From IMG/VR virus record IMGVR_UViG_3300027980_000083, positions 1 through 30,572 of that record: 30,572 nt of DNA. One strand, given 5' to 3'. The notes under the pieces are model-generated. The model saw only the letters and a program-made list of their open reading frames with translations. It did no database searches and was not told the DNA's origin. The translations under genes were made by a program, and so were the position numbers. This stretch comes from a virus. Within the stretch, counting starts at the first letter, position 1; every line of letters begins with the position of its first letter. Of the stretch, positions 11,127-28,172 are shown one piece after another.

Positions 11127-11552
11127 TCAGCCCCAGGTGTTGTATGCCGTGTTAATCGAACTCTGTAGACCAGTGGTTAATGCACCAACCTGCTTCGCTC
11201 TAATGCTTGAAGTAGTAGACCTCTGATTTGCAGCAATCACTTCAGCACCCGCCTTAACCTTCTCTTCGGTGTAATATCTTTCTAAATCGAACTCGTAAGC
11301 CTGTTTCGCCATAACCTCTAATGGAGAACCTTCCATCTTCACACCGGATGCAGCGTACTCACCCTCAGTCTGACCCATCCACGCCCTCTGTTCTTCGGAA
11401 ATCCGGCGAATCTCCTCATCACCTTCAAGACGGTTAATCTTCTGCTGTTTATCTCCAGCGGCTCTCGCATCGTCTTTAGCCTGTTCCCCAGAATAAATCT
11501 GATAGCCCGTACCTACTGCGGCTATACCTATGGCTGCTACTGCAAATGGCAT
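11127..11552 (-). CDS. gp14-like internal core / ejection protein
   Basis: A 141-aa protein with a short hydrophobic Ala/Gly/Ile N-terminus (about residues 2-18, PFAVAAIGIAAVGTGYQ) followed by an extended helical, Glu/Gln/Lys-rich body (30-75) and an Ala-rich C-terminus. This is the usual look of small podovirus core proteins (T7 gp14-type), which carry one membrane-active N-terminal helix and are released into the host envelope at infection. The middle motif with YAASGVKMEGSPLEVM also occurs in my recollection of such proteins. GGAG eight bases before the ATG supports the start. The gene overlaps the end of the hydroxylase gene by 16 bp. Family assignment is by pattern and position, with moderate certainty. 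Confidence 0.65.
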   Translation of the reverse strand: MPFAVAAIGIAAVGTGYQIYSGEQAKDDARAAGDKQQKINRLEGDEEIRRISEEQRAWMGQTEGEYAASGVKMEGSPLEVMAKQAYEFDLERYYTEEKVKAGAEVIAANQRSTTSSIRAKQVGALTTGLQSSINTAYNTWG

Positions 11553-12079
11553 GATTCTTTCTCCACACAGACAATCATAGCTATACGCTCATCGTCTGAA
11601 TCGTTCTCAACCCAATGAGGAATGGAGTTATCAAACTCATACACCTCACCCTCTTCCGGTTCAATCACACCATCCTCAAAGCAAAACTTCGCTCCCTTAC
11701 CATTCTTCACCGGAACGTAAAACTTTCTGTGATTATCCGAATGCCAAGACTTATCTACATGGGGCTTAATCTGTCCACCCTTCGGCAACTTGGTTACTAA
11801 AATTCCACCCAAATCACCCCCAGTAATCCGGTGCAAATTCATAATCACGTTAATCGTGCAAGGTAATGTCCAAGCCAACGGATACCACTCACACTCAATC
11901 GGGCCATCCTTGTGAACTTCCTCAACCGGACAATATCTCAACCACAAATCCGTACTCTCCTCATGGGGAGAACCATCAAACGTGCGTAATGGAATCTCGC
12001 CAAAGCGGTCAGCAATGGATTCCATCTCTGCCTTCATAGCAGAAACGTCAATCTCACAGACTTTCTGGAAACTGGACAC
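11537..12079 (-). CDS. Aspartyl/asparaginyl beta-hydroxylase-like 2OG-Fe(II) dioxygenase
   Basis: A 180-aa protein. It has the iron-binding HxD at H107/D109 (in QIKPHVDKSW) and the distal His at H155 (in YEFDNSIPHWVEN), followed by R165 (in DDERIAMIV), positioned to bind 2-oxoglutarate. The block from about 100 to 172 follows the aspartyl/asparaginyl beta-hydroxylase family closely, including the G-E-x-Y-x-F-D-N run before the distal His. Expected chemistry is Fe(II)- and 2OG-dependent hydroxylation of Asp/Asn side chains; the substrate here is unknown. GTG start with AAGGAG ten bases upstream. It overlaps the sulfotransferase gene by 26 bp and the core protein gene by 16 bp, so it is translated within the virion operon. 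It is not a virion component in known podoviruses and looks like acquired cargo. Confidence 0.88.
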   Translation of the reverse strand: MSSFQKVCEIDVSAMKAEMESIADRFGEIPLRTFDGSPHEESTDLWLRYCPVEEVHKDGPIECEWYPLAWTLPCTINVIMNLHRITGGDLGGILVTKLPKGGQIKPHVDKSWHSDNHRKFYVPVKNGKGAKFCFEDGVIEPEEGEVYEFDNSIPHWVENDSDDERIAMIVCVEKESCHLQ

Positions 12080-12572
12080 TCGCCATAAACTCCTTCATAG
12101 CAACCCCGTCATAAATGAACGGGTCATTCACCTGGACGTTCATGTTCTTCAACATATTCGCCCTATCCATATCACAGGGAGTCCCTGTCAGATATTCCCA
12201 GATCACCCCCAAATGCTCATCAATGTCATCAAAGTGAATCCGTAAGCCCTTCACCGAATCAAGTCGTTCCTTCAACTGGTACAGATATTCGGACATATCA
12301 ATACCAAACACCTCAATCCCATACTCAATAGACCGCTCCACATCACGCTCAATTATCAGCTTTGGGGCATGGGGAAAGTACGCCTCCAAATCAACCAGCA
12401 TGGTCGCTGTAGACGCATCTCCTGAACCTCTGACCTTCTCAACATACTCGTACTCAGTCAGACAGCCATCCAAAGCCTCGTGATGACAGAAGAACCCGTC
12501 ATAGGTTAAGAAGTTCGCAAGCCAAGCTGTACGACTCCTCGGAAGACCTAAAATGAAAAACTCCTTAGTCAT
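12054..12572 (-). CDS. PAPS-dependent sulfotransferase-like protein
   Basis: A 172-aa protein from the preferred start at 12572 (ATGACTAA overlap with the gp12-like stop; GGTGG just upstream). Residues 5-20 (FFILGLPRSRTAWLAN) form the 5'-phosphosulfate loop of P-loop sulfotransferases, and LIIERDVERSIEYGI (72-86) carries the Arg/Ser pair expected for 3'-phosphate binding of PAPS. Family members usually have 200-300 aa, so this is a compact version. The expected reaction is transfer of sulfate to a hydroxyl of a glycan, lipid or protein Tyr; the acceptor cannot be told from sequence. Sandwiched between the tail tube gene and the hydroxylase gene, with overlaps on both sides. The upstream 21-codon extension of the frame lies inside the tail gene and is probably not translated. 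Confidence 0.82.
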   Translation of the reverse strand: MTKEFFILGLPRSRTAWLANFLTYDGFFCHHEALDGCLTEYEYVEKVRGSGDASTATMLVDLEAYFPHAPKLIIERDVERSIEYGIEVFGIDMSEYLYQLKERLDSVKGLRIHFDDIDEHLGVIWEYLTGTPCDMDRANMLKNMNVQVNDPFIYDGVAMKEFMASVQFPESL

Positions 12573-14946
12573 TGCCCACCGTAATTTGACCGTAAACGCC
12601 CAATACCTCAGTAGGTACGGGCTTGTCCTGTTCAATCGTTAAACTCGCTGTATTGGAATGCCCCAACGTATTTGCTTGGAACTCCCCAGACTTCGGCTCT
12701 GTAATCATGCTCATCAAGTCAACAGAACCCCGTCCTACAACCCTGTCACCATTCAATAAAGGTGCATGGGAATTATACAACCTCAACCACACTTCAACCC
12801 ATCTCTTAGATGTAATCGAACCATACCCATCACCTACCAACTCATTGGTCACAAACCTCGCCATGTAAGGTAAGCCAACCCAATACTCAGCCAATTGCTC
12901 ATCAACAATGATTCGACCCGTATCTACAACATACTCCTTCTGCACGAATCCAAATCCACTCGGTTGCCCCGCCTTCTTACCCAACACCGTAACCGTCTTG
13001 CCTTCAAGATGTGCAAGCCCTGAGATTGTCGTTGTATTCGGGTCAGAATCATCATCCGTTGTACCCGTAATTGATCCGTCAAGATTCCACCTATCCACAC
13101 CTGGACTCGGCATAGACTCAATCATCAATTTACTCGTACTCGGTGATGAAGGGTCTGGCCTGTCAATAAGTACCGTTAATTCATCCTCACTGGTATCTTC
13201 ATTGAATGTCGGAACAATGTCCTTCACAACCCCATCAATCGGACACTGAAACCACGCAATAGTCTCTGTCTCCATCTGATAGGTCACGCCGACCAAAGTC
13301 CCGTCATCCATCACCATGTAAACGATAGTCTCCGGTACATACACCAGAGCCAAACGCTTAATGCCTCTTTTGGCTAAATGCTCACTAGCCCAAGTAATAT
13401 CCTGTGATACAAACGAACCCGTATCAAAGTTCCTCTGCGCCCGTCTTAACTTGCGACCACCCTGCTCAATGTATAAGACTTCCTGACCCAACATAATGGG
13501 GTCAGCCTTCTTACTCTTACGAGCAGTCTGACGGGCCGCATTAACCTTAGCAGGGGCAATAAAGCGACCACCCGCATTAATCACCCAATCGCCAGCACTC
13601 GTGCCAATCAGAAGTCCTCTGTTCGATTCCAGCCAGCGAATACGGGAACTCTGACGGGTATCCAAATCAAACGAATAACCCTCATTGTCATCAAAGCCCA
13701 GAATGAAATAATCGTAACGATTAAGCCGTGAACCCCAAACAGTAGCAGCAGCAGCGCGAGAACCACCCACAACCAACCTCTGCTGATAGAAGGTAGCCAC
13801 TGAAGGAAAACCCCTATCCCAAGGGGAATACTCGGAATCCAACACCCAAGCTACAGACGCTTGCCATGCCTCGTAATACGGTTCTGAACCAGATTGAGTC
13901 CAATACAACTGCCAATTCGCTCCAACACCAGGTTCAGTGTTCGCTGTAGCTTTGTGAGATTGAATACAGGTGTACCAACTACCACCATTGGTTACGACAA
14001 AAGGATAAGACCATGCAGGTTCACCCCTGCCCTGCCCTTGTGTAATAACGGTTTCAGTAATGTCAGTACCCGCAGCAGCAGTATTCACTACGTCAAATGT
14101 GACAATCACAGAAGCGGCCTCATCAGCCATAGTCACCCGCCATACCAAGCCTCCCTGACTCTGAACAGATACATCACCGTCCTTAATAAATTGTGAATCT
14201 TGAATGGCATCACGGATGATAGACTCCATGCCCGTTGCATCATTCAGATAACGGTACTGCTTAACCTCGTAAATCTTGGAAGTCTCACCGTCCGTACCCA
14301 CAACCTCCGTTTCACCCCCCGTATCTACAGAAAGCAATACCTTGTTCTTCACGTTCTCCACAGATACAGAGAACAAATCACCCGTAGCCCAAGTGCCTGT
14401 AAACGACACATCAAACACAGATGACACAGTATTGGGACTATTCGCATCGTTAAAGTCACGCTCAGGCACTAGATTCTGAGGAACGGGGGATACCGATACG
14501 TTATTGATCGAGTTAATCACAAAGATGTACGGAGGATAATCAGGATGCACCATAGAAAAACGGTCATCCCTCTGAGTCAGGTTCACATCCTTCAACTCAT
14601 CCGACAGATACGGCACAACCAACTCCAGCGTACCACCCCCCTGCGCCTGTAACAGATTGCCCTTCTGCCAGAAACGAACATACCCCGCTCCAAGCTCAAC
14701 AATCACATCCGAATCATCACCCCCCAGATTGATGTCAAACAAGCGTGTATTCGCATCTGACGGGGTTTTGGGATCACCCACATACTTAGTACCCGCTCGC
14801 ATAGAAATCGAACCCTGAGAACGTGGGACAAAGTTAGAGCATTCACGACCACCAAACTGGAATCCCTCCATATCGGTGCGTCCATATACACGAGGAGACA
14901 ACTCACCCCCGTTCAATGCATGAATTGTGTACCGTCTTTTAGCCAA
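12565..14946 (-). CDS. Tail tubular protein B-like (T7 gp12-like) tail protein
   Basis: A 793-aa protein. The N-terminus (HALNGGELSPRVYGR, then GGRECSNFVPRSQGSISMRAG) and the SVATFYQQRLVVGGS...VWGSRLNRYDYF block near 380-420 are signatures of the large tail proteins of BPP-1-like and other podoviruses, which form the nozzle below the gp11 ring. About 318-350 contains WYTCIQSHKA...EPGVGANWQLYW, resembling a type 5/12 carbohydrate-binding insertion. The start is TTG, chosen because it gives the family-typical beginning and lies about five bases after AGG; the next in-frame ATG would remove the conserved N-terminus. Its start overlaps the stop of the upstream structural gene by 8 bp. High confidence in family. 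Confidence 0.88.
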   Translation of the reverse strand: MAKRRYTIHALNGGELSPRVYGRTDMEGFQFGGRECSNFVPRSQGSISMRAGTKYVGDPKTPSDANTRLFDINLGGDDSDVIVELGAGYVRFWQKGNLLQAQGGGTLELVVPYLSDELKDVNLTQRDDRFSMVHPDYPPYIFVINSINNVSVSPVPQNLVPERDFNDANSPNTVSSVFDVSFTGTWATGDLFSVSVENVKNKVLLSVDTGGETEVVGTDGETSKIYEVKQYRYLNDATGMESIIRDAIQDSQFIKDGDVSVQSQGGLVWRVTMADEAASVIVTFDVVNTAAAGTDITETVITQGQGRGEPAWSYPFVVTNGGSWYTCIQSHKATANTEPGVGANWQLYWTQSGSEPYYEAWQASVAWVLDSEYSPWDRGFPSVATFYQQRLVVGGSRAAAATVWGSRLNRYDYFILGFDDNEGYSFDLDTRQSSRIRWLESNRGLLIGTSAGDWVINAGGRFIAPAKVNAARQTARKSKKADPIMLGQEVLYIEQGGRKLRRAQRNFDTGSFVSQDITWASEHLAKRGIKRLALVYVPETIVYMVMDDGTLVGVTYQMETETIAWFQCPIDGVVKDIVPTFNEDTSEDELTVLIDRPDPSSPSTSKLMIESMPSPGVDRWNLDGSITGTTDDDSDPNTTTISGLAHLEGKTVTVLGKKAGQPSGFGFVQKEYVVDTGRIIVDEQLAEYWVGLPYMARFVTNELVGDGYGSITSKRWVEVWLRLYNSHAPLLNGDRVVGRGSVDLMSMITEPKSGEFQANTLGHSNTASLTIEQDKPVPTEVLGVYGQITVGND

Positions 14947-24254: not shown

Positions 24255-24547
24255 TTCGACCTTCCATTTAACTTACCTAAACCAAAAACGGCTGAAACTA
24301 TGCCAGCCACCATCGCTACATACCATTCCGGCATCTTGTCAATGTTCTCTACCCAAGCATTGGCCCGCTCTGGACTGAACCACATCACAACTAAGGGAGA
24401 GAAGAAGATCACTACGATGAATTCATCCGTCCAAGACCGCTCCATATTGGCTATACGGGCTTGAATAGCCTCCTGTGTAGCCTTACCCCTCTGACCGAAT
24501 AAACCAATCACCTGAGCCGCTAAGCCGATAGCACCTTGAACAATCAT
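24251..24547 (-). CDS. Holin (three-TM, gene-transfer-agent holin-like)
   Basis: A 98-aa protein. NMERSWTDEFIVVIFFSPLVVMWFSP (34-59) and MPEWYVAMVAGIVSAVFGLG (72-91) match the pattern of the 3-TM holin family first seen in gene transfer agents: a weak N-terminal hydrophobic segment, W-T-D-E-x-x-x-x before the second segment, and P-E-W-Y before the third. It would pore the inner membrane to trigger lysis. ATGA overlaps on both sides couple it to the 32-aa membrane peptide upstream and the 105-aa protein downstream. Good confidence. Confidence 0.8.
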   Translation of the reverse strand: MIVQGAIGLAAQVIGLFGQRGKATQEAIQARIANMERSWTDEFIVVIFFSPLVVMWFSPERANAWVENIDKMPEWYVAMVAGIVSAVFGLGKLNGRSK

Positions 24548-24642
24548 GCGAACATCACCACCAACTCAATGTACAGATGGCTCACCAAATACAGCATGGT
24601 ACACAGCGATACCAACACCGTTCCCCGTTGTCTCCAGTTCAT
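24544..24642 (-). CDS. 32-aa membrane peptide upstream of the holin
   Basis: A short ORF encoding MNWRQRGTVLVSLCTMLYLV and 12 more residues: basic start followed by a hydrophobic helix covering most of the peptide. It begins 5 bases after the spanin-like stop and its TGA overlaps the holin ATG (ATGA). A weak GAAG precedes the ATG. It may be a holin regulator, an antiholin-like peptide or a coupling ORF. The tail of a longer open frame (to 25089) covers it, but the upstream part of that frame overlaps the spanin-like gene and is not convincing. Confidence 0.45.
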   Translation of the reverse strand: MNWRQRGTVLVSLCTMLYLVSHLYIELVVMFA

Positions 24643-24647
24643 CTGCT

Positions 24648-25097
24648 TCAAAATCCCGACTCCAAATCTAACCGATGCGATTGATTTCTGTAATCCTGCC
24701 TTAATTTTAGCACAGAAATATCGGACTCTAGCCGCGACTCCAACTGGTCTATCATACCCTCGTTCCTCTCTTTCTGATTGAGTTTGTTGGAGATAATAAC
24801 TTTCATAAAAGTCGGACTTTCCTTGTTCTCCTCCAACCGCAATTCTCGCAGTAAACTCAACACCTCCAAATCGGAATCCAAAACTTTGATATTCGTCCGG
24901 TGTACTTCTTGCGTCATGCGGGAATCCAATGACAACACCTCTACTTGGAGATGATTCAACTCCTCCTGTGTGTCCCGCATCATCCTCAGACGGTTCTTGT
25001 CCTGTACGTTTTGAAGAAGCGCCAGAAGCAAAATAATCGCTGTAGTCAGCGGTCGCTCCTTTAAGTCCGTCAGAACCGCGAATACCCATTTATCCAC
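24648..25097 (-). CDS. Coiled-coil membrane protein, candidate inner-membrane spanin
   Basis: A 149-aa protein with an N-terminal transmembrane segment (about residues 17-31, LTTAIILLLALLQNV) and a long Glu/Leu/Arg/Gln-rich coiled coil over residues 33-140. This N-in anchor plus periplasmic coiled coil is the architecture of Rz-type inner spanins, which bridge to an outer-membrane lipoprotein at the last step of lysis. No partner lipobox gene (Rz1-like) is visible in any overlapping frame. GTG start directly behind the TGA of the DUF5675 gene, with a poor ribosome binding site, so probably coupled. The spanin call is structural inference. Confidence 0.6.
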   Translation of the reverse strand: MDKWVFAVLTDLKERPLTTAIILLLALLQNVQDKNRLRMMRDTQEELNHLQVEVLSLDSRMTQEVHRTNIKVLDSDLEVLSLLRELRLEENKESPTFMKVIISNKLNQKERNEGMIDQLESRLESDISVLKLRQDYRNQSHRLDLESGF

Positions 25098-26823: not shown

Positions 26824-27128
26824 ACCCACACCCTCGCTTTATGACCCGTTTCCTCGCACTTCCTCTCGCCCACACTGCGGATAAGATTCTGTCCAGCAGC
26901 ATCATAGAGCCGCTTCTGATAGGTAGTGACCTTGTGAAACGATATGCCCTGATTTATTAACAATTGACAGATTTCTCCTACCGTCTTCCTAGGATTATAT
27001 TTAACAAATTGAACGATATAACCCATATCAGCACCCCTCTTGCCCTTGTTTGTACGTTCTGCGGCAATCTGTGAAGTCTGAGGGTCATTTCTACGGGCTA
27101 TTGGTGTGAAGTTAATTTCCTGCTGCAT
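26814..27128 (-). CDS. Winged-helix-like small DNA-binding protein
   Basis: A 104-aa protein. RRNDPQTSQIAAERTNKGKR (12-31) and the following KTVGEICQLLINQGISFHKVTTYQKRLYDAAGQNLI read as a helix-turn-helix or winged-helix domain with a beta wing ending in KARVWVC. This arrangement, with an (R/D)-DP-x-TS-x-IAA start, is familiar in small phage regulators or nucleic-acid-binding proteins. GGAG seven bases before the ATG supports the start. The ATG lies inside the 3' end of the methyltransferase gene (17-bp overlap), so both are translated together. Confidence 0.6.
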   Translation of the reverse strand: MQQEINFTPIARRNDPQTSQIAAERTNKGKRGADMGYIVQFVKYNPRKTVGEICQLLINQGISFHKVTTYQKRLYDAAGQNLIRSVGERKCEETGHKARVWVCS

Positions 27129-27981
27129 TGTCCATCTCCATTATTGCCCGACCAATTATTTCCGGTATCTGTGGGACTACTGCATTCCCTAGTGCTTTCA
27201 GCCGATGTCTGTCCAGTTTTCTGGAAACCCCATCATTGCCTCCACAAATAATGGGTTCAGTTTCCCTGACACGTTGCTCACAGATTGACCCAGTGAAACC
27301 TGCTTCCCAATCCGAATGCGCCTCTGCACCGATTGATTGCTCAGATTGCCCCTGTCCCTGTTGTCGGATGCTTGAGGAGTAGGCAGCATCCTCATTGTGT
27401 CCAACAGATTGAGGCTGTGACTCGTTTTCCCGTCCTTTGACTTCCTGCGCCCCGTTTCCGTTAGCTCCGCGTCTGGATGCGCTGTTTCCTGCGTTGTCGG
27501 AGTGGGCAATAATCCAGACCCTGTCTCTGCGATGGACGGCATTGACGGCACAAGCCGGAATAACAAACGCTTCTGAGGTGTAGCCAAGTCCTTCCAAGTC
27601 AGATAACACTTGGTCGAGTCCCAGAGTGATATGCCCAGCAACATTCTCGAAAAGGCAGAAGTCGGGATGAATTTCTGATATAAGTCGAGCAACCTCCGGC
27701 CAGAGATGGCGGTCATCGTTCTCGCCTCCTCGCTTCCCGGCGCTACTGAATGGTTGGCATGGGTATCCCCCGCAAATAAGGTCAACTGAGATTCCGTCTG
27801 CTTTAAGTCGTTCACCTGTTAACTCCCTCACATCTTCGTAGCACGGCACATCAGGCCAATGCTTTGCCAATACCTTTCGGGGAAATTCCTCAATCTCGCA
27901 GAAAGCAACGGTTTCAAATCCGGCGCGTTCAAGCCCCAAACTGAAGCCACCTATTCCAGAAAACAAATCTAGAACCTTCAT
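27112..27981 (-). CDS. C5-cytosine DNA methyltransferase (Dcm-type)
   Basis: A 289-aa protein. Motif I DLFSGIGGF (5-13, SAM binding), motif IV GGYPCQPFS with the catalytic Cys of PCQ at 74-76, motif VI ENV (112-114), motif VIII HRRDRVWII (150-158) and motif X ALGNAVVPQI (263-272) are all present in order, so catalysis looks intact. The part between VIII and X (about 160-260), where the target-recognition domain normally lies, is instead a low-complexity Gly/Ser/Gln/Glu/Asn-rich stretch. The same DNA encodes a second protein in another frame (27198-27815). The protein likely protects phage DNA from host restriction. The ATG at 27981 has AGGTGG at five bases and overlaps the upstream stop (ATGA). 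Confidence 0.92.
   Translation of the reverse strand: MKVLDLFSGIGGFSLGLERAGFETVAFCEIEEFPRKVLAKHWPDVPCYEDVRELTGERLKADGISVDLICGGYPCQPFSSAGKRGGENDDRHLWPEVARLISEIHPDFCLFENVAGHITLGLDQVLSDLEGLGYTSEAFVIPACAVNAVHRRDRVWIIAHSDNAGNSASRRGANGNGAQEVKGRENESQPQSVGHNEDAAYSSSIRQQGQGQSEQSIGAEAHSDWEAGFTGSICEQRVRETEPIICGGNDGVSRKLDRHRLKALGNAVVPQIPEIIGRAIMEMDNAAGN
27198..27815 (-). CDS. Nested gene inside the methyltransferase gene, MGFP-GWT-type methyltransferase-associated protein
   Basis: A 205-aa ORF on the same strand as, but in a different frame from, the methyltransferase, entirely inside it (covering its residues from about 56 to 261). The GTG start has GAGGGAG seven bases upstream, its own ribosome binding site. 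The protein has the features of a recurring phage family, as I recall it: an STK.YLTWKDLATPQKRLLFRLVPS segment (about 65-90), repeated LLPTPT and MLPTPQASDNRD motifs, and a C-terminal LNPLFVEAMMGFPENWTDIG signature (normally LNP.WVEWLMG.P.GWT). Such proteins are typically annotated as methyltransferase-associated. Role unknown; it might provide the missing target-recognition function in trans. Because conserved motifs occur in both frames, this is probably genuine dual coding. Confidence 0.72.
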   Translation of the reverse strand: MNDLKQTESQLTLFAGDTHANHSVAPGSEEARTMTAISGRRLLDLYQKFIPTSAFSRMLLGISLWDSTKCYLTWKDLATPQKRLLFRLVPSMPSIAETGSGLLPTPTTQETAHPDAELTETGRRKSKDGKTSHSLNLLDTMRMLPTPQASDNRDRGNLSNQSVQRRIRIGKQVSLGQSVSNVSGKLNPLFVEAMMGFPENWTDIG

Positions 27982-28172
27982 GCGTACCACCTGGTTCTGT
28001 ATTTGATTATATCCCTTGCCGTGCTTTCCCCGCAGTCAAAATGCTTTGCGAGTTTTGCATACGACCATCCTTTTTCCTCTCGCATTTCCCTCATCACCCT
28101 TACATCCTCATCACTCAGCTTAGCCTTTTGGTGGGCCTCACCTACCCTGTGGCCTGTGTGGTTACGCCTCAC
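27978..28172 (-). CDS. Small HTH DNA-binding protein
   Basis: A 64-aa protein from GTG 28172, which is preceded by GGGAGG at six bases. Residues 18-64 (KLSDEDVRVMREMREEKGW through SYAKLAKHFDCGESTARDII) form a resolvase-like helix-turn-helix, as in many phage HNH-associated or regulatory mini-proteins. The N-terminal RRNHTGHRVGEAHQKAK resembles the linker in proteins fused to HNH nucleases, so it may be a remnant of such a gene. The frame extends upstream to 28325 but that part is a shadow of the zinc-finger gene. Ends in ATGA overlap with the methyltransferase gene. Confidence 0.6.
   Translation of the reverse strand: MRRNHTGHRVGEAHQKAKLSDEDVRVMREMREEKGWSYAKLAKHFDCGESTARDIIKYRTRWYA

Follow-up and report, generated by a model that had tools for sequence, protein, structure and literature searches.

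A probable two-subunit phage C5-cytosine methyltransferase with its modular target-recognition chain encoded in an overlapping frame

Lee, Kam & Shaw reportedly described in 1995 that the gene for the large chain of the methyltransferase M.EcoHK31I also encodes the small chain, nested within it in another reading frame. In Bacillus phage C5-cytosine methyltransferases, the target-recognizing domains are about 40 aa each and can be swapped. The enzymes of this kind from SPR, phi3T, rho11 and H2 are described as single chains with sequential target-recognizing domains (PMC8936443). Two enzymes distributed over two polypeptides are treated in the account of a review (PMC3404938). There M.AquI (CYCGRG) is a split C5 methyltransferase, its two chains divided in the variable region, and M.EcoHK31I (YGGCCR) carries motifs I–VIII and X on its large chain and motif IX on its small one, the review assigning its predicted target-recognition domain (TRD) to the large chain.

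Here we describe a comparable locus in a viral window, an IMG/VR phage contig of which the whole stretch of 30,572 nucleotides was analysed. Two overlapping open reading frames, alpha and beta, very probably encode a single phage C5-cytosine DNA methyltransferase in two subunits, beta supplying modular target recognition; this reading is drawn from sequence comparisons. The initial annotation had proposed two real proteins in two frames of this DNA, which is borne out by the ORFs themselves, by the matches of alpha to PF00145 and of beta to PHROG 1008, and by a codon-shuffle test.

Alpha (27112–27990, minus strand, with a likely ATG start at 27981) is identified as the catalytic C5-cytosine methyltransferase subunit by PF00145, AlphaFold2 (AF2) and Foldseek. 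On the same strand, motif I lies at about 27946–27969, the catalytic PCQ of motif IV at 27745–27771, the ENV of motif VI at 27640–27648 and motif VIII at 27514–27531, and the alpha frame is resumed downstream of beta's motif IX by motif X (GNAVVPQ; 27169–27189). These are the five motifs previously read in the methyltransferase frame. Alpha has what is expected of a C5 methyltransferase in its AdoMet-binding motif I, PCQ motif IV, ENV motif VI and motifs VIII and X, and the invariant residues are present (alignments A2 and A4), but it does not carry a TRD and motif IX on the same chain. PF00145 matches residues 4–176 only (E = 1e-42), and motif IX is absent from the alpha frame between VIII and X, a stretch under relaxed selection that the model leaves unfolded. 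The AF2 model has a core with pLDDT >90, leaves residues 173–257 unstructured (<50) and is without a small domain. Foldseek aligns alpha with M.HhaI and M.HaeIII across the catalytic half, about 168 of 327 residues. The neighbourhood holds a gene for a NinG/HNH-type nuclease and genes of the replication type; a promoter and terminator scan gave no signal above chance.

Beta (27198–27815, minus strand) is a nested frame of 205 codons in the +1 frame of alpha, supported as a subunit by its full-length PHROG 1008 match (E = 3.5e-31), the shuffle test and nesting in relatives. As noted initially, it begins with GTG and has its own ribosome-binding site, GAGGGAG (27823–27829, minus), seven bases upstream; the start is fixed by an in-frame TAA two codons before the GTG (27819–27821, minus). 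GGGAGG stands at the equivalent place in the P. larvae phage loci L082 and L083. The N-domain of beta (residues 1–102, including SLWDSTKCYLTWKDLATPQKRLLFRLVPS; 27510–27815, minus) overlaps alpha motifs IV–VIII and is conserved in alignment A1. Sequence and profile searches of Pfam, NCBIfam and the PDB gave no match to beta, and no signal came from aligning lone beta to ordinary C5 enzymes with hhalign. AF2 of beta alone reached a pLDDT of 51, a poor prediction that would be compatible with a partner-dependent subunit and proves nothing.

For the shuffle control, synonymous codons were permuted within alpha, keeping its protein and codon usage (n = 2000). Shuffled alphas had a mean of 5.8 stops in the beta frame, which stayed open in 1 of 2000. 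Beta scored 401 against its closest relative, compared with 92±24 for shuffles (maximum 166), and 382 against a second relative, compared with 72. In the window, 12 stops interrupt the third frame, which is open in 0 of 80 loci.

The +1 overlap makes alpha position 3 beta position 2, and alpha position 1 beta position 3. Substitutions were counted by alpha codon position (1/2/3) in 18 disjoint pairs of loci, selection being measured on the window's relatives, of which the best other alpha is about 57% identical to that of the window. Where alpha alone is encoded, the counts were 20/11/79 upstream and 20/3/67 downstream of beta; they were 79/24/141 across the beta N-domain and 336/140/130 across the repeated LPTP units, or cassettes, that follow it. 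Within the cassettes alpha first-position changes exceeded third-position changes in 18 of 18 pairs (p = 8e-6), whereas the flanks showed the opposite trend, 13 to 1. Compared with the flanks, the N-domain is shifted as double constraint would predict (Fisher p = 0.0015), with alpha third positions slower there than in the flanks. In close pairs the cassette region is 95% identical read as beta and 83% identical read as alpha. From these position-specific substitutions we conclude that both frames code, beta being the conserved frame in alpha's low-complexity stretch. The codon-position check proposed with the initial annotation hence finds both frames selected, with the cassettes beta-biased in every pair; the accompanying view that the methyltransferase frame is low in complexity there and lacks its own TRD is upheld by the end of the PF00145 match at residue 176 and by cassette selection lying in the beta frame.

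The C-terminal end of beta carries a motif IX, KLNPLFVEAMMGFPENWT (27210–27263, minus), recognized by M.HhaI register, chimeric tails and natural fusions. In a collinear chimera composed of alpha through motif VIII, the beta cassettes through motif IX and then alpha motif X, KLNPLFVEAMMGFPENWT aligns with M.HhaI KLHPRECARVMGYPDSY, and motif X keeps its register. From the GFP of beta to alpha motif X there are 21.7 codons in 71 of 77 loci, and 20 in an ordinary enzyme (L180). Tails joining beta IX to alpha X score 7.5 bits above shuffled tails and 6.1 above alpha-frame tails (73 of 75 loci, which are not independent of one another). When PF00145 was run against alpha/beta chimeras, the window match extended to the end with its score barely changed, and relatives' scores were lower.

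The strongest evidence for the proposed identity of beta comes from natural single-chain and split enzymes. ShiLan gp70, prophiT49-1 gp22 and VRedHorse gp68, all of Mycobacterium phages, contain motifs I–VIII, LPTP repeats, IX and X in one frame, the last two as MMGWPAGWVT (MQGWP in prophiT49-1) followed by GNGVVP. PHROG 1008 matches residues 196–388 of ShiLan gp70 (E = 2e-61), and a profile of nested betas finds the single-chain mycobacteriophage enzymes at 1e-10 to 1e-15; over all single-chain and split proteins its matches range from 1e-10 to 1e-34, compared with 0.8 for the best shuffle. In Streptomyces phage Euratis (gp34) and Arthrobacter phages ArV1 and Orcanus, alpha ends after motif VIII, and cassettes, IX and X follow in the +1 frame. 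In sequence terms, beta makes up the remainder of the enzyme, comprising the variable region and motif IX and lying collinearly between alpha motifs VIII and X. The initial annotation had suggested that one frame gave up its TRD to let the other be coded there; the collinear position points rather to the block of TRD and motif IX having itself ended up in the second frame. The initial annotation's naming of the nested product as an MGFP-GWT protein is refined accordingly, the product not being unrelated to the methyltransferase; its suggestion that the product supplies DNA recognition is probably right, given the motif IX register, the natural single-chain enzymes and the reuse of cassettes described below.

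Two details of these phages are recorded separately. The Euratis, Orcanus and ArV1 loci (L210, L212 and L214) represent an M.AquI-like split, IX and X both being in the +1 frame. ShiLan gp70 and VRedHorse gp68 each contain an unannotated +1 ORF (L211:2585–3043 and L215:2004–2372) with the beta N-domain and one or two LPTP units, as if this domain worked in trans in the single-chain mycobacteriophage methylases.

The window beta has two cassettes, LPTPTTQETAHPDAELTETGRRKSKDGKTSHSLNLLDTMRM (27387–27509, minus) and LPTPQASDNRDRGNLSNQSVQRRIRIGKQVSLGQSV (27279–27386, minus), both of which recur elsewhere. Cassette 1 is found again at 63–78% identity in L006 (as the second unit), L051 (third), L168 (first), L031 and others; cassette 2 is found at 71–89% in L111, L143 and L158 (fourth of four), in proteins with N-domains that are unlike or partly alike. 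Among 160 betas, 17, 61, 72, 9 and 1 have one, two, three, four and five LPTP units, respectively, with a median unit length of 38 aa. Between proteins with N-domains less than 50% alike, 407 unit pairs match at 60% or more, and the position in the order differs in 236 of them. Units that are 70–85% alike as beta average 77% identity in the beta frame versus 43% in the alpha frame. Beta is, by these measures, built of tandem interchangeable modules of about 40 aa, and the LPTP cassettes probably behave as exchangeable target-recognition modules, each presumably with its DNA target.

A search with beta alone returned 80 viral loci, among them L001, 100% identical to the window, and three phage records (L082–L084) were added. 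At all of them alpha surrounds beta, always in +1 and with both frames open; contigs L056 and L062 start within the overlap. An alpha search gave another 80 loci, 80 of 80 with beta, loci fetched by either search being enriched for relatives. Homologues with a broken second frame, the finding that the initial annotation had named as telling against it, did not appear; every related locus is open. Selecting loci in Bacillota genomes by PF00145 yielded 23 of the ordinary type without beta and 2 alpha/beta pairs.

A less biased sample was drawn from viral contigs by motif IV DNA pattern, using the first 120 stretches listed per pattern. Among the matches listed for the GGFPCQ type, the 100 complete C5 ORFs comprise 86 with beta in +1, one that is single-chain and 13 with none; all 12 of these 13 beta-less ORFs that were listed have their own in-frame motif IX. 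The GGPPCQ type, again among the matches listed, is without beta in 103 of 108 cases and has it in +1 in 5. Alpha/beta also occurs in bacterial genomes, in plasmids and in phages of Paenibacillus, Lacticaseibacillus and Bacteroides hosts. The initial annotation had suggested that the arrangement may be widespread but hidden. It is widespread in phages and often half-annotated, as in E. coli genomes with a relative, where alpha alone is annotated at the locus; hidden is too strong, both frames being annotated in 31 of 60 phage records listed (P. larvae phages; counted by eye), so the beta gene is not unknown to annotators.

Variants were seen among these loci. Viral contig L142 has two alpha/beta pairs in tandem. 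At L035:2814–3920 alpha is longer by about 110 codons in the stretch from the end of beta to motif X, and no beta lies over them. Another subtype of beta, having the N-domain '..SWRTSQ.CL...FSETWPRSGMMRNGTAY..', often accompanies alphas having GGFPCQDIS as motif IV (L113, L118, L123, L129, L131, L140 and similar loci).

Other explanations of the second frame can be set against these data. Long chance ORFs do occur opposite or beside genes, and beta might be an accidental by-product of alpha codon usage, but the shuffle control, the conserved nesting and the position-specific substitution pattern refute this, leaving it a negligible probability. Phage methylases do offer a precedent for an ORF out of frame, the HNH 'ShiLan domain' of mycobacteriophage methylases (PMC11855218), a mobile homing element. 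That beta is such an element is just as improbable, however: Pfam and PHROG searches found no homing-endonuclease or HNH family match in it, its distribution is not patchy but takes in every close relative, and it spans conserved alpha motifs.

Explanations in which beta is genuine but does another job or is made in another way deserve somewhat more weight. Beta might be a separate accessory protein, such as a regulator, an inhibitor or an anti-restriction factor, that merely shares the methyltransferase's DNA. Lone beta does lack a detectable fold match, and its N-domain, which has no known relative, keeps a +1 ORF of its own even where the enzyme is single-chain. We nevertheless judge this unlikely: natural single-chain enzymes carry the modules and motif IX in one unbroken stretch with the catalytic domain and motif X, alpha is without motif IX and a small domain, and ordinary C5 enzymes having their own motif IX are beta-less. 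Still less likely, and indeed very improbable, is a programmed +1 frameshift between motif VIII and the cassettes that would make an alpha–beta fusion without using beta's own start. The invariably +1 register would fit such an event, as would the single-chain and split versions, which show that the block can occupy either frame; against it stand beta's own start, with its good ribosome-binding site and in-frame upstream stop, and the N-domain, which is superfluous in a fusion yet conserved and selected. Frameshifting may still act as an additional route.

We accordingly prefer the two-subunit enzyme, which might operate as follows. Alpha would bind AdoMet and contribute the catalytic PCQ cysteine (motifs I–VIII and X), and beta, translated from the same message by internal initiation at its own start, would provide the small domain with the variable (target-recognition) region and motif IX. 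The two would assemble into an active methyltransferase with its specificity in beta, the variable region of which would be a row of ~38-aa swappable cassettes (two in the window), each probably a recognition module. If a cassette is such a module, then swapping cassettes should change or add recognition sequences, as we propose. Since no restriction gene was recognized near alpha/beta in the phage contig, the enzyme would most likely be used to methylate the phage's own DNA and so evade host restriction enzymes. We lean towards a broader reading in which phages widely use an overlapping-frame C5 methyltransferase made of a catalytic chain and a cassette array, the cassettes recombining freely between phages because the alpha frame there would be a tolerant, disordered spacer, with the shuffling of specificity hidden by annotation.

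On this reading, a great number of 'DNA cytosine methyltransferases' of phages and prophages may be annotated as one protein while the specificity chain lies in the other frame. LPTP cassettes would be a natural parts list tying short protein modules to DNA targets and, if this is true, a recognition code could be read from cassette–methylome pairs. The locus is, moreover, a clear case of nested same-strand genes, each frame selected in a different stretch, which is useful for overlap-aware gene finders and models of overlap.

Elsewhere in the window, a further pair of same-strand ORFs overlaps in different frames (24544–25089 and 24648–25097; 181 and 149 aa); neither has a Pfam match, and the pair adjoins a DUF5675 protein and a probable holin and is possibly spanin-like. 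An aspartyl/asparaginyl beta-hydroxylase-like protein (11537–12079; PF05118, E = 8.5e-9) lies amid structural genes, and beside it a 193-aa ORF with FILGLPRSRTAWLANFL (12054–12635) looks sulfotransferase-like by eye and falls in no Pfam family.

A two-polypeptide layout is already known. New here are the array of modules, the selection for beta in the stretch where alpha had been predicted to hold a TRD, and how common the arrangement is. The literature searched gave no description of a row of exchangeable modules in an overlapping frame, nor of its prevalence, and a search of plasmids and E. coli genomes for M.EcoHK31I-like pairs found only distant prophage-type pairs. Compared by description, the window pair matches M.EcoHK31I in layout, with motifs I–VIII and X on the large chain, IX on the small chain and, as reportedly in M.EcoHK31I, the small frame nested within the large one. 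M.EcoHK31I differs in being part of a restriction-modification system and in having its TRD predicted in the large chain, whereas the variable region of the window family is selected in the small-chain frame and is multi-cassette; by analogy, the review's placement would run contrary to a TRD in beta. M.AquI likewise splits one enzyme over two chains in the variable region, but has IX and X both on the small chain, as in Euratis and ArV1 and unlike the window. ShiLan gp70, prophiT49-1 gp22 and VRedHorse gp68 share the catalytic domain type, LPTP cassettes, IX and X, yet use a single frame, only the beta N-domain being left in +1. The multispecific Bacillus phage enzymes are also phage-borne, and their sequential target-recognizing domains, as described, resemble the beta cassettes in arrangement; they differ in placing everything on one chain in one frame.
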